Assembly (NCBI GenBank): GCA_903933735.1 | Contig: CAIZLB010000037.1 | Location: forward strand, 1 to 33,273 | Source: an uncultured bacterium | Lineage (GTDB): Bacteria > Patescibacteriota > Minisyncoccia > Phycocordibacterales > CAIZLB01 | Length of the DNA stretch: 33,273 nt | Direction of reading: 5' to 3' | Part shown: one piece after another, positions 13,579 to 24,927 of the stretch | How the letters are laid out: every line of letters begins with the position of its first letter | Numbering within the stretch: the stretch's first letter is position 1 | The notes under the pieces: generated by a model | Told to the model about the DNA's origin: nothing | Database searches by the model: none | Seen by the model: the letters and a program-made list of their open reading frames with translations, nothing else | Program-made: the position numbers and the translations under genes

Positions 13579-15327
13579 ATGTTGCAAATCGCTGAAATTA
13601 TAAAAAAACATTGTATTTCATACTTAAAAATAAACAATATCGAGGATATTGTTATAGAAAGTGTACGTTTTACTGTTGATATCAATAAAGATATAGACAG
13701 AGGTGATCTATATACCAACTTTGCTTTGGTATCGTCTAAGATTTTAAAACAAGATCCAACAGCTATTGCGGTCAATCTTGCGCAATATTTGGATAAAGAG
13801 CTAGATAAAAATATTTTCAAAAAAATAGAAGCTATAGATAATTATGTAAACTTTTATTTAGTAGATGAATTCGTATCAGAAGATAGTGAAAATATTTATC
13901 ATAAAGATTTTGATTCCAAAAAGATTGCATATGAATACACTGATCCAAATCCCATGAAAGAATTTCATATCGGTCATCTTATGTCTAATACTATAGGGGA
14001 GACTCTTTCTCGTATAGCCCAGATGGCCGGAGCTGATATAAAGAGATATTCATATCAAGGTGATGCGGGACGGCATTTAGCTGTTACTATGTGGGGACTT
14101 CGATTCATGGAAACACCTTGGCCTGATGCTGATAACATATCTATAACAGATAAAGTAAAATTCTTAGGACAAGCTTATGTTATGGGTAATAAAAAGTTGT
14201 CTGAATCTAAAGAAAAAGGTGAAGATTCTGATGAATATAAACAATATATGCAAGAGATAGAGGTGATGAATCAGAAGATATATGATAGATCCGATGAAGA
14301 GGTGAATATTATATATGATCAAGGACGAGAATGGAGTTTGGAAAAGTTCGAAGAATTATATAATATTTTAGGTACTAAGTTTGATTATTATTTCTTTGAA
14401 AGTAAAAGTGCTCCTGTTGGATTGCAAATAGTAAAAGATGATTTAGAAAAAGAAAATTCTATTTTTGCAAAAGGGGACAATGATACTGTCATATTCAAAG
14501 GTGAAGATCATGGTCTGCATACTCGTGTCTTTGTAACTTCAAAAGGTATACCAACATACGAAGCTAAAGAGATCGGTTTAGCTAAGATAAAATACGATGT
14601 ATGGAATTTTGATAAAAGTATTGTTATAACAGCCAATGAACAAAATGAAGTATTTAAAGTAACTAATAAAGTTATATCACTCTTGATTCCAGATATAGGC
14701 CCTAAGATGTCACATATAAGTCATGGTATGATGCGTTTTGTCGGTGAGAAGATGAGTTCAAGAACAGGGAAAGTTATCGCAGGGGATGAACTTGTGGAAG
14801 ATATGATGAATGCCTCATATGAGAAAATGAAAGACCGCGACATGGAAGAAGGTGATAAAAAACAGATATCTCAAGATGTTGCAGTAGCTGCAATAAAGTT
14901 TAGTATCTTAAAACAGAATTTTAAAAAGGATATTATCTTCGATAAAGAAAAATCATTATCACTTGAGGGGGACTCAGGTCCATATATACAATATGCGGTT
15001 GTTCGTATAAATTCTATTTTAAAAAAGACAGAAGGTTTAGAGATAGCGAAAACAGAAAGAGAATTATCAAAAGAAACCGAGAATCTAAACAGAACATTAT
15101 GGCGATATAATCATATGTGTTTTAAGGCTATAGATGAGATGGCTCCACAATATATAGCACAGTATCTTATAGATCTAGCGTCTCGTTTTAATACTTTTTA
15201 TAATAAAAATAAGATTATAGAGGGTGATAAAGTTGATAAAGGTTTGTTGGAGTTATGTGTCAAAACTAAGGATATATTGACTAGGGGTTTGGATACTCTG
15301 GGGATTAGGGTGGTAGAGAGGATGTAG
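13579..15327 (+). CDS. argS: Arginyl-tRNA synthetase
   Basis: A class I synthetase charging tRNA-Arg in the cytoplasm; 582 aa is normal. It has the N-terminal additional domain (about 1-105), then DPNPMKEFHIGHL with the HIGH motif at 130-133, GDAGRH, the KMSSRTGKV loop at 391-399 (KMSS as in many ArgRS) and the C-terminal DALR anticodon-binding domain with RFNTFYNKNKI near the end. A TATATT box at 13565-13570 lies 8 nt before the ATG, again suggesting a leaderless mRNA. It is followed by lysS in the same direction after a short repeat-bearing gap. Confidence 0.98.
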   Translation: MLQIAEIIKKHCISYLKINNIEDIVIESVRFTVDINKDIDRGDLYTNFALVSSKILKQDPTAIAVNLAQYLDKELDKNIFKKIEAIDNYVNFYLVDEFVSEDSENIYHKDFDSKKIAYEYTDPNPMKEFHIGHLMSNTIGETLSRIAQMAGADIKRYSYQGDAGRHLAVTMWGLRFMETPWPDADNISITDKVKFLGQAYVMGNKKLSESKEKGEDSDEYKQYMQEIEVMNQKIYDRSDEEVNIIYDQGREWSLEKFEELYNILGTKFDYYFFESKSAPVGLQIVKDDLEKENSIFAKGDNDTVIFKGEDHGLHTRVFVTSKGIPTYEAKEIGLAKIKYDVWNFDKSIVITANEQNEVFKVTNKVISLLIPDIGPKMSHISHGMMRFVGEKMSSRTGKVIAGDELVEDMMNASYEKMKDRDMEEGDKKQISQDVAVAAIKFSILKQNFKKDIIFDKEKSLSLEGDSGPYIQYAVVRINSILKKTEGLEIAKTERELSKETENLNRTLWRYNHMCFKAIDEMAPQYIAQYLIDLASRFNTFYNKNKIIEGDKVDKGLLELCVKTKDILTRGLDTLGIRVVERM

Positions 15328-16925: not shown

Positions 16926-17741
16926 ATGGAACAAAATTTAACAATATTTGAAAATAATAATATAAGAAGAGTCTATGATGAAAAGTCAGGGAAGTGGTAT
17001 TTTTCTGTGGTTGATATTATAAGCATTTTAATAGAAAAGGACTTTCAAACAAGTAGAAAGTATTGGAAAGTATTAAAAGGGCGTTTAAATAAAGAAGATG
17101 ATGGTCAGTTGGTAACAAAATGTTACCAACTGAAAATGTTAGCTTCTGATGGTAAAACTTATTTAACCGACTCTATGGATGTCGAATCATTACTTCGTCT
17201 TATTCAATCTGTACCATCACCGAAAGCCGAACCTATAAAACTTTGGCTTGCTAAGGTTGGTTATGAACGTATGCAAGAGACTATTGATCCTGAGTTGTCT
17301 ATAAATAGAGCTCGTAAAAATTGGAAAAATGGTGGTAGAAGTGATAAGTGGATACAGCAACGTATGTTCGGTCAAGAAACTAGAAACAAATTGACCGATT
17401 ATTGGTCAAATAATGAAGTTAGGGAAGGTAAAGAGTTTGCGATATTGACCAATATGATTCATCAAGAGTGGTCAGATGTGTCAGTTAAAGATCATAAGAG
17501 TATTAAAGGGTTAAAAAAACAAAACCTCAGAGATCATATGTCAGAAGCAGAACTTATATTTACAGCATTGGCTGAACTTTCAACCAGACAGATTGCGGAG
17601 ACGTTAGAATCAAAAGGTTTGGAGGAGAATAAGGTACCCGCTAAAGAGGGTGGTAAGATATCAAAACAGGCTAGAATATCTCTCGAAAAAAAGACAGGTA
17701 AAAAAGTCGTCACCGGTAATAACTATTTATTAAATAAATAA
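16926..17741 (+). CDS. BRO-N domain protein (phage antirepressor-like)
   Basis: A 271-aa protein. The N-terminal BRO domain (about 1-115) shows FENNNIRRVYDEKSGKWYFSVVDII, KMLASDGKTYLTDSMDVE and LLRLIQSVPSPKAEPIKLWLAKVGYER. The C-terminal half is basic and helical, with a DinD-like pattern (ETRNKLTDYW, EGKEFAILTNMIHQEWS, NLRDHMSEAELIFTALAE). Such proteins bind DNA or act in phage or damage responses, and chromosomal copies are frequent in CPR genomes; the role here is unknown. The 5' module is shared with the DUF1016 gene. A perfect 13-bp inverted repeat lies inside the gene at 17105-17133. Confidence 0.85.
   Translation: MEQNLTIFENNNIRRVYDEKSGKWYFSVVDIISILIEKDFQTSRKYWKVLKGRLNKEDDGQLVTKCYQLKMLASDGKTYLTDSMDVESLLRLIQSVPSPKAEPIKLWLAKVGYERMQETIDPELSINRARKNWKNGGRSDKWIQQRMFGQETRNKLTDYWSNNEVREGKEFAILTNMIHQEWSDVSVKDHKSIKGLKKQNLRDHMSEAELIFTALAELSTRQIAETLESKGLEENKVPAKEGGKISKQARISLEKKTGKKVVTGNNYLLNK
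17105..17133 (+). repeat. Perfect 13-bp inverted repeat inside the BRO-N gene
   Basis: Arms TCAGTTGGTAACA (17105-17117) and TGTTACCAACTGA (17121-17133) with loop AAA. It encodes QLVTKCYQLK, a stretch I believe is conserved in BRO proteins, so it could be a coding constraint, an operator or an RNA hairpin. Confidence 0.7.
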
Positions 17742-17790
17742 TGTTATAATACAAACATAATCAAATTAACAATAAAATCAAAATAAAAAT

Positions 17791-18534
17791 ATGTCATCAA
17801 TAATACCAATAATTATATTTATATTATTAATCTCAATACGTCAGGTTAATCAATATGAAAAAGGATTAAAATTCATGTTTGGAAAATTTCATAAAACCAT
17901 GAACCCAGGTTGGAGAATAGTCCTACCCATAATACAATCATATCAAAAAGTAGATCTTAGAACTAAAGCTGTCGACGTCCCAGATCAAAACGCGATAACA
18001 AAAGACAATGTTCCCGTGAATGTAAACGCTGTTATATATTATAAAGTGGCCGATGCAGAAAAAGCTATACTTGAGATAGAAAACTTCAGATATGCCATCA
18101 TGCAATATGCACAAACAACTATGAGAAATGTTGTAGGTGAAGTCACTCTGGATGAACTTTTGGCATCAAGAGATAAGGTTGCTGATCGTATAGAGGTACT
18201 TGTCGAAACCGTGAGTAAGTCATGGGGACTTGAAGTTTCTTCGGTTGAATTGAAAGATGTAAAACTTCCAGAAAACATGGAAAGAACTATTGCAAAGCAG
18301 GCTGAAGCAGAAAGAGAGAAAAGAGCAGTTATAATTACTTCAGAAGGTGAACTTGCTGCGTCAGCCAATATGTCAGAAGCTGCGAGAGTGTTATCGTCAA
18401 CACCTGGAGCATTACACCTTAGAACACTTCAATCTATAAATGATATAGCTTCAGATCAATCAAATACTGTAGTATTTACAGTACCACTTGAGATCATGCA
18501 AGCATTTACAGGTTTTATGAAGAAAGGAGAATAG
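17791..18534 (+). CDS. Slipin / stomatin-like SPFH protein
   Basis: A 247-aa protein with an N-terminal membrane-inserting hydrophobic segment (about 2-14), then an SPFH/band-7 domain: RQVNQYEKGLKFMFGKF, NPGWRIVLPI, VDLRTKAVDVPDQNAITKDNVPVNVNAVIYYKV, TTMRNVVGEVTLDELLASRD. A coiled-coil tail rich in Ala/Glu (KQAEAEREKRAVIITSEGE) follows. It is the bacterial slipin type, thought to scaffold membrane microdomains. No NfeD partner is adjacent. TATAAT at 17745-17750 gives an A-rich leader of about 34 nt without Shine-Dalgarno, unlike the leaderless genes nearby. Confidence 0.93.
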   Translation: MSSIIPIIIFILLISIRQVNQYEKGLKFMFGKFHKTMNPGWRIVLPIIQSYQKVDLRTKAVDVPDQNAITKDNVPVNVNAVIYYKVADAEKAILEIENFRYAIMQYAQTTMRNVVGEVTLDELLASRDKVADRIEVLVETVSKSWGLEVSSVELKDVKLPENMERTIAKQAEAEREKRAVIITSEGELAASANMSEAARVLSSTPGALHLRTLQSINDIASDQSNTVVFTVPLEIMQAFTGFMKKGE

Positions 18535-18622: not shown

Positions 18623-21600
18623 ATGAAAACCCCAAATGAGCGTGAGTCAGCTATACTAAAATATTGGCAGGACAATAATATTTTTCAAAAAACCCTTGAT
18701 AAAAATAAAGATAAGGAGTCTTTTAGATATTATGATGGACCACCATATGCTACAGGTTTACCTCATTTTGGTAGTGTTTTACCTTCAGCTATAAAAGATA
18801 TGTTCCCAAGATATAAGACTATGAGGGGTTATGATGTACCACGTTCATGGGGTTGGGATTGTCATGGTTTACCTGTTGAAAATCTGGCTGAAAAGATACT
18901 CGGTTTTAAAGGAAAAAAAGATATCGAAGAATCGGGGATAAAAAAATTTAACGAAACCGCCAGAAGTACAGTTTTTAAGTTTAGGGAGGATTGGAAAAAA
19001 GTTATACCAAGGCTTGGCCGTTGGGCTGATATGGACCATGATTATAGAACACTTGACGCTACCTTTATGGAGTCAAATCTTTGGGCTTTTAAACAACTTT
19101 GGAATAAGGATCTTGTATATGAAGGTTATAAAGTTATGCCATGGTGTCCACATTGTGAGACTGTGTTATCAAATTATGAGGTAACCGAGGGCTATAAAGA
19201 GATATTTGACCTATCTGCCTATGTATATTTTCGTATAGATGAAGGAGAGTACAAAGATACATTCATGATTGCTTGGACTACAACCCCTTGGACCTTACCT
19301 GGTAACATAGCCTTGGCTGTCAACAAAGATTTTTCATATCTATTATTAGATACCGGATCAAAAAAAATAATCGTTCTGAAATCATCATTGGATAAAGTGA
19401 ACACTTTTAAAAAAGAAGGGGAGACATTTTCTATAATAAAAGAAATAAAAGGAGAAGAACTTTTAGGTTTGTCATATAAACCTTTGTTTGATTATTATCA
19501 AGATTTAAAAACAGATAAAACTTGGAAAATATATCATGGTGATTTCGTTACAGATACTGACGGTACAGGTATTGTTCATATCGCTCCAGCTTTTGGTGAT
19601 GATGATATGAAATTATCTCAAAGAGAAGATTTGCCGGTTATTAAACATGTTAATCTACATGGTGATTTTATGTCTGAAGTCAAAGATTTTACAGGTCAAG
19701 TAAAGCCTAAGGATGATCATTCTAAAGCTGATATTGAAGTTATAAAATATTTAGCTCACAATGATTTGTTGTTTGCCAAAGAAAAATATACTCATACCTA
19801 TCCTCATTGTTGGAGATGTAAAACACCTTTACTTAACTATGCAACATCATCATGGTTTATAAAAACTACAGCAGTTAGGGATAGGATGATAGAGGTCAAT
19901 AACACTATTAACTGGTATCCTGATGAGATTGGTCATAAAAGATTGCAATCATGGCTTGAGAACAATAGAGATTGGGCTGTATCACGCAGTCGTTATTGGG
20001 GTACGCCTTTACCTGTATGGAAAAGTGAAAATGAAGAAAGTCAGAACAAATACATATGCTTAGGTGGTGTTGATGAAATAAAAAACAAAACTAGAAAAAA
20101 TACATACACAGCTTTTAGACATGGTGAAGCAACTCATCTAATAGAAAATGTTATGAGTTCCGGTGAGGAATTTTCTAAAAAACATCATTTAACTGAAAAG
20201 GGTAAAGAGGATGTTAGATTGTCAGTCGAGAAAATGATACTCGAGAATAATATACCCGATATCATCTATACATCACCTATAGTTCGTACAATAGAAACTG
20301 CTGAAATAATAAAAAATACAATCAAAGAAAAAACAGGAAAAGATATAGAGATAAAAGTAGATGATAGATTGAAAGAAGAACAGTTCGGTGATATGGACGG
20401 ACAAAGTATAGAAATACATAACGCTTACAGGGTCACAACTGAAGAAAAGGTTTCCAAAAAATTTCCAAATGGAGATTGCTTTTTAGATATAAAAAATAGA
20501 GTCGCTGATTTTATTTATGATATAGATAAAACACATGAAGATAAAAATATATTAATAGTATCTCATCAAGGTCTTATACACGCATTGTATTTTGTCACAA
20601 GGGGGGATAATACTGATCAAATAATTAATAATTATGAATCTTTTGGTTTAATCAAAACATCCGAATATATCAACATTGATTTTGCAAATATACCCCACAA
20701 TGATAACTTCGAACTAGATTTTCATCGTCCTTATATAGATGAGATTAGTTTTAAAGAGAACGGAGAGGTATATAAAAGACTAACTGAAGTTTTAGATGTT
20801 TGGTATGATGCCGGATCAATGCCTTTTTCTTCTGTACATTTTCCATTTGATTTTGATGATGTTGCACAAAAAGATTTCGCTAAAAATGTAACTGTTGATT
20901 TTGTGGCTGAGAGTTTGGATCAAACTCGTGGTTGGTTTTACTATATGTTATTTATGTCTGTAGCTTTGTTTGATAAAGCTCCTTTCAAAAATGTGATGGT
21001 TGGTGGTATGGTTTTGGCTGAGGATGGTAAAAAGATGAGTAAAAGTCTTGGTAATTATCCAGACTTATTGCCGGTAGTTGAAGAATTTGGAGCTGATTCA
21101 CTTCGATATTTTTTGCTTTCATCTCCAGTTACCCGTGCTGAAGAGTATGCATTTTCGCAGAAGATGTTGAATGAGATAAATAATAAATTTTTCAACAAGA
21201 TCTCAAACGTTATTTCATTCTTGGAGATGTATGGTGTTCAAGATTTAAATATTGATATTGATAAAGATTTTTCAAATGAGAATGAGTTAGATCAGTGGAT
21301 AAATATAAAGTTAAATAATCTAATAAAAGATATAACAGAAAATCTAGATAATTATCAAATAGATAGAGCCGCTCGTCCTATAATAGATTTTGTCGAAGAT
21401 TTATCTACTTGGTATCTACGTCGTTGTCGTGATCGTTTCAAGGATATAGATGAAGCCGGAAAAGTAACTAAAAATCTTCTTATAGTTTTGATAAAACTAT
21501 CAAAAATTATAGCACCGTTCACACCTTTTATGGCTGAAGAGATTTATTTATTCGTTAAATCATTTTCAAATAAAAATAATAATTTTCTAGAATCAGTTCA

Positions 21601-22081
21601 TCTTGAAAATTGGCCAAATATAAAAGTTATAAAAGATGTAGAGGTATTAGATAAGATGTCCCAAACTCGCCTTGTCATAGAGCAAGGATTAGCTCTTCGT
21701 AATAAATATAATCTTAAAGTTAGACAGCCTTTGGAATCTATTTCGGTTAATAAATATTTGATTTCGAATATATATCAAGACATCATAAAAGATGAATTAA
21801 ATATTAAAAATATATTGGAAGTTGAAGTAGGGGAGGAATTTGTTCTCGATATAAATATAACTGAGGAGTTAAGGCTTGAAGGTATTGTTAGGGATATGAT
21901 ACGTGAAATACAGTCTAAGAGAAAAGATCTTAAACTTATACCAACTGATAAAATAAGTTTGATTATTAAAAATAAAGACAATATCTCTTCATATATAGAT
22001 ATGATCAAAAATGCTGTAAACTCAGATACTGTAGAATTTATAAATTCTGATACCGATGAAATTGTTGTAAATAAAGTGTAA
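18623..22081 (+). CDS. ileS: Isoleucyl-tRNA synthetase with inserted histidine phosphatase domain
   Basis: A class I synthetase for tRNA-Ile, 1152 aa against about 1000-1050 for similar enzymes. Visible are PPYATGLPHFGS (HIGH region at 48-51, with Ser as the last residue), WGWDCHGLPVE, the editing-domain AWTTTPWTLPGN, CWRCKTPL, SRSRYWGTPLPVW, DVWYDAGSMPF and KKMSKSLGN (KMSKS 804-808), then the anticodon-binding region. Residues about 494-690 (bases 20102-20692) are a His_Phos_1 domain. It has FRHGEAT (R499, H500), LTEKGKED, SPIVRTIETAEII (R555), RLKEEQFG (E585) and VSHQG (H648). It is inserted between the catalytic halves just before FHRPYID. RecO follows 4 nt later. Confidence 0.96.
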   Translation: MKTPNERESAILKYWQDNNIFQKTLDKNKDKESFRYYDGPPYATGLPHFGSVLPSAIKDMFPRYKTMRGYDVPRSWGWDCHGLPVENLAEKILGFKGKKDIEESGIKKFNETARSTVFKFREDWKKVIPRLGRWADMDHDYRTLDATFMESNLWAFKQLWNKDLVYEGYKVMPWCPHCETVLSNYEVTEGYKEIFDLSAYVYFRIDEGEYKDTFMIAWTTTPWTLPGNIALAVNKDFSYLLLDTGSKKIIVLKSSLDKVNTFKKEGETFSIIKEIKGEELLGLSYKPLFDYYQDLKTDKTWKIYHGDFVTDTDGTGIVHIAPAFGDDDMKLSQREDLPVIKHVNLHGDFMSEVKDFTGQVKPKDDHSKADIEVIKYLAHNDLLFAKEKYTHTYPHCWRCKTPLLNYATSSWFIKTTAVRDRMIEVNNTINWYPDEIGHKRLQSWLENNRDWAVSRSRYWGTPLPVWKSENEESQNKYICLGGVDEIKNKTRKNTYTAFRHGEATHLIENVMSSGEEFSKKHHLTEKGKEDVRLSVEKMILENNIPDIIYTSPIVRTIETAEIIKNTIKEKTGKDIEIKVDDRLKEEQFGDMDGQSIEIHNAYRVTTEEKVSKKFPNGDCFLDIKNRVADFIYDIDKTHEDKNILIVSHQGLIHALYFVTRGDNTDQIINNYESFGLIKTSEYINIDFANIPHNDNFELDFHRPYIDEISFKENGEVYKRLTEVLDVWYDAGSMPFSSVHFPFDFDDVAQKDFAKNVTVDFVAESLDQTRGWFYYMLFMSVALFDKAPFKNVMVGGMVLAEDGKKMSKSLGNYPDLLPVVEEFGADSLRYFLLSSPVTRAEEYAFSQKMLNEINNKFFNKISNVISFLEMYGVQDLNIDIDKDFSNENELDQWINIKLNNLIKDITENLDNYQIDRAARPIIDFVEDLSTWYLRRCRDRFKDIDEAGKVTKNLLIVLIKLSKIIAPFTPFMAEEIYLFVKSFSNKNNNFLESVHLENWPNIKVIKDVEVLDKMSQTRLVIEQGLALRNKYNLKVRQPLESISVNKYLISNIYQDIIKDELNIKNILEVEVGEEFVLDINITEELRLEGIVRDMIREIQSKRKDLKLIPTDKISLIIKNKDNISSYIDMIKNAVNSDTVEFINSDTDEIVVNKV

Positions 22082-22085
22082 ATAT

Positions 22086-22658
22086 ATGGTCTACACTATA
22101 TACGAGACAAATTGTATTGTGTTTGATTTAAAGAATCTACAAGAAGATGATTGCCTGATAAGGGCTTTTTCTGATAAATTCGGTGTGATAAATATCATAG
22201 CTAAAAGTTTTAGAAAATCTCAATCTAAACTGAAGGCTAATATTAAAGCTTTCTCTGTTAATAAGATCGCTATAGTTCGCGGTCGCGAGTTTTTTAGATT
22301 AACTGATGTTAATCACATATTTTCATTTTCTAACTCCAAAAGCTTGGTAAGTTTTTTGAGATTAGCCGAGAGTTTGTTTTTTAATGATGAAAGAGATTAT
22401 TTTGATGAAATAAATAATCAAGTCTATAATATGATTATTCATTTATGTAAGTTTATAATCTATTTGATTAAAAATAATAAAAAAGATTCTATTGAAATAG
22501 TGAATATGTTTTTTATTATCTATGTTAGAAGTCTACAAGGTTTTGTAGTTAAGTTCGATATTGAAGAGATGACCGCACTCAAAGATAATGATTTGTTTAT
22601 ATGGTTCGAAAAAGAATCATCTAATATAAGAAATACTAATAAAAAAATAATACTCTAA
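22086..22658 (+). CDS. recO: DNA repair protein RecO
   Basis: A 190-aa protein with the RecO N-terminal OB-fold (TNCIVFDLKNLQEDDCLIRAFSDKFGVINIIAKSFRKSQSKLKANIKAF) and a helical C-terminal domain. RecO helps RecR load RecA onto SSB-coated DNA. It is shorter than the usual 230-250 aa, and the Cys4 zinc site of many RecO proteins is not present. Such short forms may be normal in reduced genomes. It starts 4 nt after the ileS stop, so it is in the same transcript. Confidence 0.85.
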   Translation: MVYTIYETNCIVFDLKNLQEDDCLIRAFSDKFGVINIIAKSFRKSQSKLKANIKAFSVNKIAIVRGREFFRLTDVNHIFSFSNSKSLVSFLRLAESLFFNDERDYFDEINNQVYNMIIHLCKFIIYLIKNNKKDSIEIVNMFFIIYVRSLQGFVVKFDIEEMTALKDNDLFIWFEKESSNIRNTNKKIIL

Positions 22659-22695: not shown

Positions 22696-24927
22696 ATGAA
22701 CAGTCCAAATGATGAAGAGTTAAATAAAATCAATAGATTGAGACAGAAACTTTATGCCAGGTCTTTAACTGATAATGCCTCTAAACTTAATATGTTGCAC
22801 AAACATAATCTAGATGTTCCTTCATCTTGGGAAGATAAGTCTGATAGTATTAAAGAGAGTAGTCCTGATAAATCATCATCTCCTAATAAGAAAGAGACAG
22901 TGGCCGATTTTTTGAATAATAAATTTGACAATATCCATACCGATACAGATAGTTTCAGTGAGGCTAGGGCTAACAGAATCGAAAATAGGATGGAGCAGAC
23001 TAGAGGTGTTTTAAAAATAGCTGAAGCTGAATTAATGGGAAGTAATAATCAACTATATCCAAATCTCAAGAAGGGTTTAAATAGTATAGAATCTAGTTTT
23101 CAGTCTGACTATCATCCTGATATTAAAACTGTAAAGATAGGTGAAACTGCTGATATGCAAGGTAAGGATATAAAAAAGAAAAAAAATAAAAATAATATCA
23201 CATTTAGCTTTGTCGTATTTATGTTTATATTCTTCTTTTTTGTCGGTGCGGGATTCTATGCTTATATAAATCTGATAAAGGGTGTAAATACAGTTTCAAC
23301 AAGTAAAATAGATATCAAAATTACAGGACCAAGCTCTGTCAAAAGTGGTGAAGTAAGTGATTTTATTATAGATATAACCAACAATAATTCCACAGATCTT
23401 GTTCTCTCAGATCTTATGGTGCAATATCCAGATGGTTCCAAATCTCCAATAGATAGAGCTATAGATCTAAATAATGAAAGAATATCTATAGGTACAATAA
23501 GATCGGGTGAGACGATAAGACAGAAAAATTCGGTAGTTTTCTTTGGTGAGCAAAATGCTAAAAAGAATGTAAAATATTCTTATGAGTTTAATATTGTTGA
23601 TTCATCAACTATATTTAAAAAAGAAAAAGACATAGGAGTGTTTATAGCAGGTAGTCCTATCAATGTTGTCATCAATAATATTAAAGAGATTAATAACAAT
23701 CAGGAATTAACTTTTGATATAGAGATCAATTCAAACACAGAAGAAGTTTTGAAAAACATACAATTAAAGGTTGAGTATCCTTTTGGGTATAAACTATTGG
23801 AGTCGAATCCTAAACCTGTAGCCGATAATAATACTTGGAGTTTTGATAGTATAGATGCTTTGTCGACAACCTCGATTAGGATAAAAGGTAAATTTACAGG
23901 AGAAATCAATGTTGATAAAAACTTCAGATTTATTTTAGGTGTGGAGGATAATAAAACTAAAGAGATGTTAACGGTTTTATCGACACAAGACACCCTAGTT
24001 GCTATACGTAAGCCATTTGTTGCCACAAGACTGTTAATAGATGGTGATGGTATGGATGTTAAATCAGTCACTTATGATCAAAATTTAAAATCTGATTTGA
24101 TCATAACTAACAATTTAAAAGAAATTATAACTGATGTTGTCGTCGAGGTGTCTGTTGCAGGTGTTCTGATTGACAGGATGAGTGTTAAAAGCTCTGATGG
24201 TTTTTATGACTCAAACAGAGACATCATCTTATGGGACAAATCATTAAATGCAGGTTTAACAAGTATACCGCCTGGAGAGAGTCGTGAACTTAGTTTTAAT
24301 ATAGCCACTATAAAGAGTGATGATAATCTAATTAAGAGTCTAAGAAGGGCTGTGTCTGATATAACTATAAATATTAAAGCAGGTAGAATGGGTACAGATA
24401 GGGTAACCGAAAATGTGAATGCAAGTACAAAAAAACAATTGAGACTTAAGACTGATGCATTCTTTAATTCAAATATGGGCTATAGTTCAGGAGTATTCTC
24501 ACCTGAGGTTAATAAAGAAGTTATCTATAAATATACAGGTAATATTTCAAATACAGCTAATACCTTGAAAGATGTTGTGTTTAACGCAAAATTACCACCA
24601 AATGCTATATGGAAAAATTCATATGTTAGTAATGTAACTATTAATCCGGCATCTGTCAGATATAATAAAAGCACAAGAGAGATCAGTATAAATCTAAGTG
24701 ATATAGAAGCCGGTGCTGGTATCGATAAAGTTTTAAGAGAGTTTTCATTCTTGATTGGTTTTATTCCGACATTAACTCAAACAGGGCAATATCCTATAGT
24801 AATCATGAATCCAACAATAACAGCCACAGACAGTTTTACAGGTGAAAGGATACAAATTAAAAATGAGTCTTTAAATACTAGTGTAACTATTGGTGATAAG
24901 ACAGATGTTTCTGGTATGGTGAAATAG
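22696..24927 (+). CDS. Large single-pass surface protein with repeated beta domains
   Basis: A 743-aa protein. The cytoplasmic N-terminal region (about 1-165) is polar and partly disordered. One transmembrane helix (about 168-194, SFVVFMFIFFFFVGAGFYAY) is followed by a long exported region (about 200-735). That region is built of Ig-like/DUF11- or CARDB-type beta domains: SGEVSDFIIDITNNNSTDLVLSDLMVQYP, EVLKNIQLKVEYPFGYKLLESNP, NTANTLKDVVFNAKLPPNA. It resembles CPR cell-surface proteins; adhesion to or contact with a host cell is an inference. It sits between recO and GlyRS. Confidence 0.75.
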   Translation: MNSPNDEELNKINRLRQKLYARSLTDNASKLNMLHKHNLDVPSSWEDKSDSIKESSPDKSSSPNKKETVADFLNNKFDNIHTDTDSFSEARANRIENRMEQTRGVLKIAEAELMGSNNQLYPNLKKGLNSIESSFQSDYHPDIKTVKIGETADMQGKDIKKKKNKNNITFSFVVFMFIFFFFVGAGFYAYINLIKGVNTVSTSKIDIKITGPSSVKSGEVSDFIIDITNNNSTDLVLSDLMVQYPDGSKSPIDRAIDLNNERISIGTIRSGETIRQKNSVVFFGEQNAKKNVKYSYEFNIVDSSTIFKKEKDIGVFIAGSPINVVINNIKEINNNQELTFDIEINSNTEEVLKNIQLKVEYPFGYKLLESNPKPVADNNTWSFDSIDALSTTSIRIKGKFTGEINVDKNFRFILGVEDNKTKEMLTVLSTQDTLVAIRKPFVATRLLIDGDGMDVKSVTYDQNLKSDLIITNNLKEIITDVVVEVSVAGVLIDRMSVKSSDGFYDSNRDIILWDKSLNAGLTSIPPGESRELSFNIATIKSDDNLIKSLRRAVSDITINIKAGRMGTDRVTENVNASTKKQLRLKTDAFFNSNMGYSSGVFSPEVNKEVIYKYTGNISNTANTLKDVVFNAKLPPNAIWKNSYVSNVTINPASVRYNKSTREISINLSDIEAGAGIDKVLREFSFLIGFIPTLTQTGQYPIVIMNPTITATDSFTGERIQIKNESLNTSVTIGDKTDVSGMVK

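Follow-up and report, generated by a model that had tools for sequence, protein, structure and literature searches.

What is a histidine phosphatase doing inside an isoleucyl-tRNA synthetase (IleRS)? Few enzymes are as conserved as the aminoacyl-tRNA synthetases (aaRSs), and in those of class Ia the CP1 editing domain is the catalytic insert known best. In the window, by which we mean the whole 33,273-nucleotide stretch of DNA that was analysed, an uninterrupted open reading frame (ORF) of 1152 amino acids on the forward strand encodes a type-2 IleRS, and the original prediction placed a His_Phos_1 domain within it, just before the motif FHRPYID. Pfam bears out this arrangement: tRNA-synt_1 is split into two stretches (the best at residues 11-493), PF00300 lies between them, and Anticodon_1 (residues 890-1039) is located C-terminal to the phosphatase. 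The features to which we refer are the following.

13579..15327, forward strand: argS (Pfam); in relatives with an insert-free ileS, a stand-alone phosphatase gene can sit between argS and ileS
18623..22081, forward strand: ileS, type-2 IleRS with an inserted histidine phosphatase (ORF, Pfam, NCBIfam, predicted structure)
18764..18775, forward strand: HIGH motif of IleRS, reading HFGS, residues 48-51 (alignment)
19274..19306, forward strand: presumed CP1 editing-domain motif WTTTPWTLPGN, residues 218-228 (alignment)
19967..20002, forward strand: RDWAVSRSRYWG, counterpart of the yeast IleRS CP2-3 linker, after which the insert comes (alignment; passages of PMC7955072)
20090..20716, forward strand: inserted histidine phosphatase, residues ~490-698 (Pfam, alignment, domain model)
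20117..20122, forward strand: R499-H500, presumed catalytic Arg and nucleophilic His (alignment)
20138..20140, forward strand: residue 506 of RHGxxxxN, here Leu; 133 of 146 IleRS inserts have Asn (alignment)
20285..20287, forward strand: R555, second catalytic Arg (alignment)
20375..20377, forward strand: E585, catalytic acid (alignment)
20564..20566, forward strand: H648, second catalytic His (alignment)
20717..20740, forward strand: DFHRPYID, restart of the IleRS core, residues 699-706 (alignment)
21032..21046, forward strand: KMSKS motif, residues 804-808 (alignment)
22086..22658, forward strand: recO-like gene that follows ileS directly, also in relatives (Pfam, relative loci)

The ileS product reaches 836.3 bits against the NCBIfam ileS equivalog TIGR00392 (cut-off 621.4) and 329.9 bits against ileS_w_GNAT (NF040702), below its cut-off of 1999. 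It is the sole IleRS found in the window genome, where the remaining matches are frames of 708 and 810 amino acids and shorter or weaker pieces. The type-2 IleRS fold, the KMSKS motif and WTTTPWTLPGN, which from general knowledge of IleRS we take to be the editing motif of the CP1 domain, are all present. The HIGH motif reads HFGS, neither the canonical HxGH nor the (G/A)xHH signature, and in two congeners it reads HFGN. Across an alignment of 71 IleRSs (the window's and those of 70 of the 80 relative loci kept; ten that were truncated, split or too long were omitted), this motif departs from HxGH in 31 sequences, 17 of which have (G/A)xHH, and the CP1 editing residues T220, T221 and D328 are kept in all 71. 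An AlphaFold model of the full-length protein (pLDDT 91, pTM 0.86) finds its best matches among eukaryote-like IleRSs, namely yeast IleRS (9wqs; VIA Z 45.1, rmsd 2.9, 849 residues) and Priestia megaterium IleRS2 (8c8u; VIA Z 42.8, rmsd 3.7, 910 residues), and in this model the IleRS fold is preserved whole around the inserted phosphatase.

Where does the phosphatase begin and end? Alignment with insert-free IleRSs places the insert at residues ~490-698 (20090-20716), between RDWAVSRSRYWG...EIK and D699-FHRPYID; the interval originally assigned, 20102-20692, corresponds to the phosphatase core (residues 494-690). In the relevant passages of PMC7955072, ARDWNVSRNRYWG is the CP2-CP3 linker of yeast IleRS and lines the reveromycin A pocket in the tRNA site. 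Because RDWAVSRSRYWG is equivalent to this linker, the insert lies in CP3 (CP2 if two connective peptides are counted). The idea that the phosphatase sits next to the aminoacylation site holds as a statement of domain order, in that the insert follows the linker described in those passages.

The PF00300 match covers residues 498-656 (E 1.7e-25; domain score 95.1 bits, cut-off 21.7). A structural search with the whole window protein listed synthetases alone and no phosphatase, and the phosphatase domain was therefore modelled separately. The AlphaFold model of the domain (pLDDT 97) adopts the fold of a branch-1 histidine phosphatase and matches PspA (4ij6; VIA Z 21.8, rmsd 2.3, 184 residues), PhoE (1ebb, VIA Z 21.2, rmsd 2.4, 184 residues; 1h2e, VIA Z 21.1, rmsd 2.4, 185 residues) and GpgP (4qih; VIA Z 21.2, rmsd 2.4, 185 residues), matches within 1 Z being treated as ties. 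Modelling, suggested at the outset as a check, thus returned confident predicted folds for both synthetase and phosphatase. By sequence profile, PhoE and PspA are the best solved relatives. The domain reaches no cut-off of a named NCBIfam phosphatase subfamily, scoring 72.7 bits for alpha-ribazole phosphatase (cut-off 162.9), 71.6 for archaeal dPGM (225), 59.8 for PspA (350) and 29.8 for SixA (74.5). Judged by sequence and predicted fold, the insert is a complete branch-1 histidine phosphatase (PF00300) of the PhoE/PspA/CobC-like type.

Is the phosphatase catalytically competent? The RHG motif, the second Arg, the acidic Glu and the second His are all in place (R499, H500, G501, R555, E585 and H648), and R499, H500, R555, E585 and H648 occupy the very positions originally named for them; the roles of R499 as the catalytic Arg and H500 as the nucleophilic His are presumed from superfamily knowledge. 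These five residues are invariant in 20 IleRSs of the window's genus, family and order. In the 71-IleRS alignment, R499, H500, R555, R626 and H648 are found in every sequence and E585 in 70. A larger set of 179 domains (146 from IleRS, 13 from ValRS and 2 from partial aaRS frames, plus 18 others) was found by a profile of such domains and is biased toward intact motifs; among its 159 inserted Ile/Val domains, R499, H500 and R555 are each kept in 159, H648 in 158, and E or D at position 585 in 156.

The window's own copy presents a less uniform picture. The motif Asn of RHGxxxxN, which is common but not universal in the histidine phosphatase superfamily, is replaced by Leu in the window's protein, as it is in both congeners (N506L); in total, 13 of the 146 IleRS insert domains are without Asn at this position. 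Compared with the congeners, the window's phosphatase domain is 58-60% identical and the rest of the protein 77-83%, and dN is about twofold higher in the domain (0.29-0.31) than in the rest (0.12-0.16); dS is close to saturation or past it. For the congener pair, identity is 77% in the domain versus 82-84% in the rest. Selection on the window-branch phosphatase seems to have remained purifying while relaxing or shifting, and the phosphatases of this genus may have lowered or changed activity. The original expectation that the domain is likely active therefore fares well for the family, given that H500 and R555 are universal among the 159 inserted domains, and less well for the window's copy, given Leu506 and the roughly doubled dN. 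The phosphatase is probably active in most relatives, and for the window's own protein the balance tips slightly toward activity.

The fusion is real, widespread and recurrent. It had been suspected to exist in other CPR sequences, and it does, in 80 relative loci and in order- and phylum-wide matches. All 80 kept loci have the phosphatase domain in an IleRS-like frame (split across two frames in L078), a set that does not give an unbiased rate, since the IleRS motif beside the insert served as one of the search patterns. The named records among them are Parcubacteria-type Patescibacteria, and the others are unnamed bacteria. One record labelled Spirochaetia bacterium (L044) has an IleRS insert that groups with a Wolfebacteria record in the domain tree, and its label is probably a binning error.

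The domain lies inside a frame of at least 797 amino acids, which is of aaRS size, in 89 of the 98 genomes of the window's order, and all 13 genomes of the window's family carry the insert. One further genome (G029) has the start of the domain in a 595-residue frame at a contig end. Among the other eight, three are undecidable (G050, G537, G563) and five encode an IleRS of 950-980 amino acids that lacks the insert (G034, G041, G315, G533, G534). An order-wide domain search found no close stand-alone phosphatase copy in these five genomes, so the phosphatase function is dispensable somewhere. Among the order-wide matches listed, domain-bearing frames longer than 600 amino acids are of IleRS type, plus two of 933 and 945 amino acids that we take to be ValRS. 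Among the matches listed for 379 genomes of the phylum, at least 67 genomes place the domain in a frame of aaRS size, one of these frames (G402) being partial.

The phosphatase has also entered ValRS, and more than one place in either enzyme. Twelve ValRS frames carry the domain, one of them in two copies, and six of the twelve are confirmed as ValRS by NCBIfam. IleRSs of 1464-1490 amino acids contain two phosphatase copies, and one of 1572 amino acids contains three. Reading the flanks reveals at least four insertion places: A, the window's site; B, just ahead of DxLDTWFSS/DCWFESG; C, past that motif and ahead of ADFIAEGLDQ or its ValRS equivalent (L147, L155, L156); and D, where the half with KMSKS gives way to the anticodon domain (L147, L150, L163). 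In the domain tree, the ValRS and tandem copies stand apart from the inserts of the window's order. On an IleRS core tree from which the insert columns were removed (103 rows, comprising 57 with the insert, 7 with the operon arrangement and 39 with neither; G000 and G034 appear twice each), at least 15 switches between presence and absence of the insert map to branches with strong support, and some of these changes could stem from IleRS transfer between lineages.

Other enzymes accompany the phosphatase. IleRSs carry a serine hydrolase, NUDIX and phosphatase (L158), GNAT and phosphatase (L150), or phosphatase and a C-terminal HD domain (L038); ValRSs carry HAD, serine hydrolase and phosphatase (L154) or serine hydrolase and phosphatase (L152), and a ValRS-type frame carries NUDIX and a weak alpha/beta-hydrolase match (L230). 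Six long IleRSs without the phosphatase (L218, L219, L220, L208, L225, L203) contain no extra Pfam domain, and hence not every long IleRS is explained. Two of them (L218, L219; 1225-1226 amino acids) have additional segments at about 218-312 and 622-748, neither of which has a match in Pfam.

In addition to the fused form, a close stand-alone homologue is encoded beside ileS in some relatives. It abuts or overlaps ileS in L138, L139, L182, L183 and L197 and lies within ~2 kb in L141 and L179. Four loci (L138, L139, L140, L141) were chosen in a phylum-wide search for stand-alone homologues scoring above ordinary ones; three of these (L138, L139, L141) have the order argS-phosphatase-ileS with an insert-free IleRS, the genes abutting in L138 and L139, and the homologue of L140 is not at such a locus. 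Among 28 insert-free loci fetched by IleRS length alone, four have the stand-alone gene at most 2 kb upstream (L179, L182, L183, L197), with phosphatase and ileS frames overlapping or abutting in the last three; the other 24, some with little upstream sequence, are without it. In the domain tree (FastTree, modest support), the stand-alone proteins of L138, L139, L140, L182, L183 and L197 fall among IleRS inserts, and those of L141 and L179 group elsewhere.

The neighbourhoods hold further genes. An HD_4 domain gene lies between the stand-alone phosphatase and ileS in L141 (6045-6551). In the window, genes for a Bro-N domain protein and an SPFH/Band 7 protein (16926-18534) separate lysS from ileS, unlike in several relatives, where argS directly precedes ileS; a 743-residue ORF without a Pfam match at E 0.001 (22696-24927) is flanked by recO and the gene of a class II synthetase. 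Four loci of one bacterial family (L165, L166, L167, L168) encode frames of 437-463 amino acids with a C-terminal histidine phosphatase, and L165, the one scanned, has a VTT membrane domain N-terminal to it.

What, then, could the phosphatase do? We propose that a self-standing PhoE/PspA/CobC-like phosphomonoesterase module is housed in the connective peptide that follows the CP2-3 linker and that, tethered there, it would dephosphorylate a small ligand that is produced or bound in the course of Ile (and Val) charging. This is the best explanation, at about an even chance; it is supported by conserved catalytic residues, the predicted fold, recurrent IleRS/ValRS insertion and a stand-alone homologue beside insert-free ileS. 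That the phosphatase is active and functionally coupled to charging appears probable. Counting against the best explanation are the five genomes of the order that have an insert-free IleRS and no close stand-alone copy, Leu506 and the faster change in the window's copy, the presence of the upstream gene in only 4 of 28 loci and the other enzymes found on IleRS/ValRS. Insertion sites differ widely, so one fixed geometry relative to the active site is unlikely. A by-product of aminoacylation, as the original prediction envisaged, is a possible target. Our first choice of substrate, offered as a tentative guess, is an AMP-like nucleotide, because AMP is the sole phosphomonoester made by the charging reaction and because the best NCBIfam match, alpha-ribazole phosphatase, has a nucleotide-like 5'-monophosphate as its substrate.

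There is a broader possibility, which we put forward as speculation: Patescibacteria IleRS and ValRS may be recurrent docking platforms for small hydrolases, chiefly histidine phosphatases, acquired many times and at more than one site since dephosphorylating a ligand near Ile/Val charging pays. NUDIX, HAD, GNAT, serine hydrolase and HD domains on IleRS/ValRS fit a general docking site, and the same mixture fits equally a reading in which the phosphatase is a mere passenger. If a docking platform exists, it would imply an unrecognised catalytic step on aminoacylation, which might clear a product, proofread a phosphorylated intermediate or decoy, or serve control.

The passenger reading holds that a general metabolic phosphatase unrelated to charging resides in IleRS/ValRS, which would offer tolerant loops, constant expression and protection from loss in shrinking genomes. 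The multiple insertion sites and cargo types, the 15 or more state changes on the IleRS tree and the VTT membrane-domain fusion within the same superfamily all speak for it. However, fusion hosts are almost exclusively IleRS and ValRS among the matches listed, chance poorly explains repeated returns to the same two synthetases, and the stand-alone form can adjoin ileS. We consider this reading a minority one, with perhaps a one-in-five claim on the data. Less plausible is a sensor or regulator, whose pocket would bind a phosphorylated metabolite and tune charging allosterically with catalysis secondary. Its appeal is that the insert follows the linker that, in the passages of PMC7955072 cited above, lines a tRNA-site pocket in yeast IleRS, and that insert-free enzymes exist, so the core functions without it; yet the complete catalytic set is retained, beyond the needs of binding, and several distant insertion sites are at odds with a single allosteric route.

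Could the cargo instead protect the synthetase from inhibitors? On this proposal, which we regard as improbable, phosphatase, NUDIX, GNAT and serine hydrolase domains would break down nucleotide-like antibiotics on the very enzyme that these attack. In its favour, the cargo families are similar to enzymes known for detoxification, namely those of microcin C immunity. Moreover, 17 of the 71 aligned relatives have (G/A)xHH, a motif that confers mupirocin hyper-resistance in other IleRS2 enzymes according to passages of PMC10485003. On the tree, however, the insert shows no association with HIGH-motif (mupirocin-type) variants, a comparison of low power (15 independent pairs, few with differing motif), and its presence in most of the order suggests housekeeping.

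Replacement of a missing phosphoglycerate mutase, pyrophosphatase or ppGpp hydrolase is very unlikely, although the superfamily is shared with dPGM, ppGpp was an originally proposed target and the L141 operon includes an HD_4 gene. The window genome is among the 16 of 21 that have PF01676, an iPGM-type metalloenzyme, and the mutase idea is rejected there. Pyrophosphatase domains above cut-off are present in 18 of the 21 (family I in 10, family II-type PF02833 in 8, membrane type in 1), which makes that substitution unlikely; the window genome has a weak family I match (25.9 bits), and G007, G015 (61% complete) and G022 have no pyrophosphatase domain over the cut-offs. The RelA_SpoT domain is found in 6 of the 21 genomes, leaving 15 without it, among them all 13 of the window's family, where a ppGpp enzyme is accordingly unlikely and ppGpp disfavoured as a target. 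An assembly or frameshift artefact can be dismissed, since the frame is intact, the same architecture is present in two same-genus IleRSs (76% and 75% identical) and matching architectures occur across independent genomes.

In the open-access literature searched, which included passages of PMC7955072, PMC10485003, PMC12077802, PMC5370408 and PMC13114784, we found no paper on a phosphatase in IleRS or ValRS. Other aaRS domain fusions and domain swapping, in TyrRS/TrpRS, are described for CPR bacteria in passages of PMC5370408; its passages on CPR fusions contain no phosphatase, and the terms IleRS and ValRS are absent from its text. Passages of PMC13114784 treat the CP1 editing domain as an insertion in class Ia synthetases. 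The architecture may be visible, unremarked, in public domain listings (InterPro, UniProt). Newly seen beyond the fusion itself are the upstream stand-alone homologue, the ValRS inserts, the multiple sites, copies and cargo, and the at least 15 state changes. The order-wide insert, some ValRS inserts and the operon partner elsewhere suggest that charging is coupled to phosphate removal in a large uncultured group, and the operon/fusion pair makes this directly testable, since one and the same activity can be supplied or taken away, whether in cis or in trans.

How does this enzyme compare with known systems? Extra domains on aaRSs, as in the window, are also found in ileS_w_GNAT (NF040702) and in the CPR TyrRS/TrpRS fusions of the PMC5370408 passages. 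The window protein resembles the type-2 IleRSs of P. megaterium (8c8u) and yeast (9wqs) in synthetase fold and in its editing and KMSKS motifs; none of the solved relatives listed is named as phosphatase-bearing, and the window differs from them also by HFGS. The phosphoserine phosphatase PspA (4ij5/4ij6) and PhoE/YhfR (1h2e/1ebb) share the predicted fold and catalytic residues of the inserted domain, but they are stand-alone proteins with 24-25% identity to it, and the window's domain lies far under the NCBIfam PspA cut-off. CobC alpha-ribazole phosphatase (TIGR03162) provides the window's best NCBIfam phosphatase match, likewise under the cut-off. The CP1 editing domain is also an enzymatic insert in the same host and, from knowledge of the family, acts on charging products; its fold and chemistry are unrelated to those of the phosphatase, and it is general in IleRS/ValRS, whereas the phosphatase insert is limited in distribution and has been repeatedly gained or lost.
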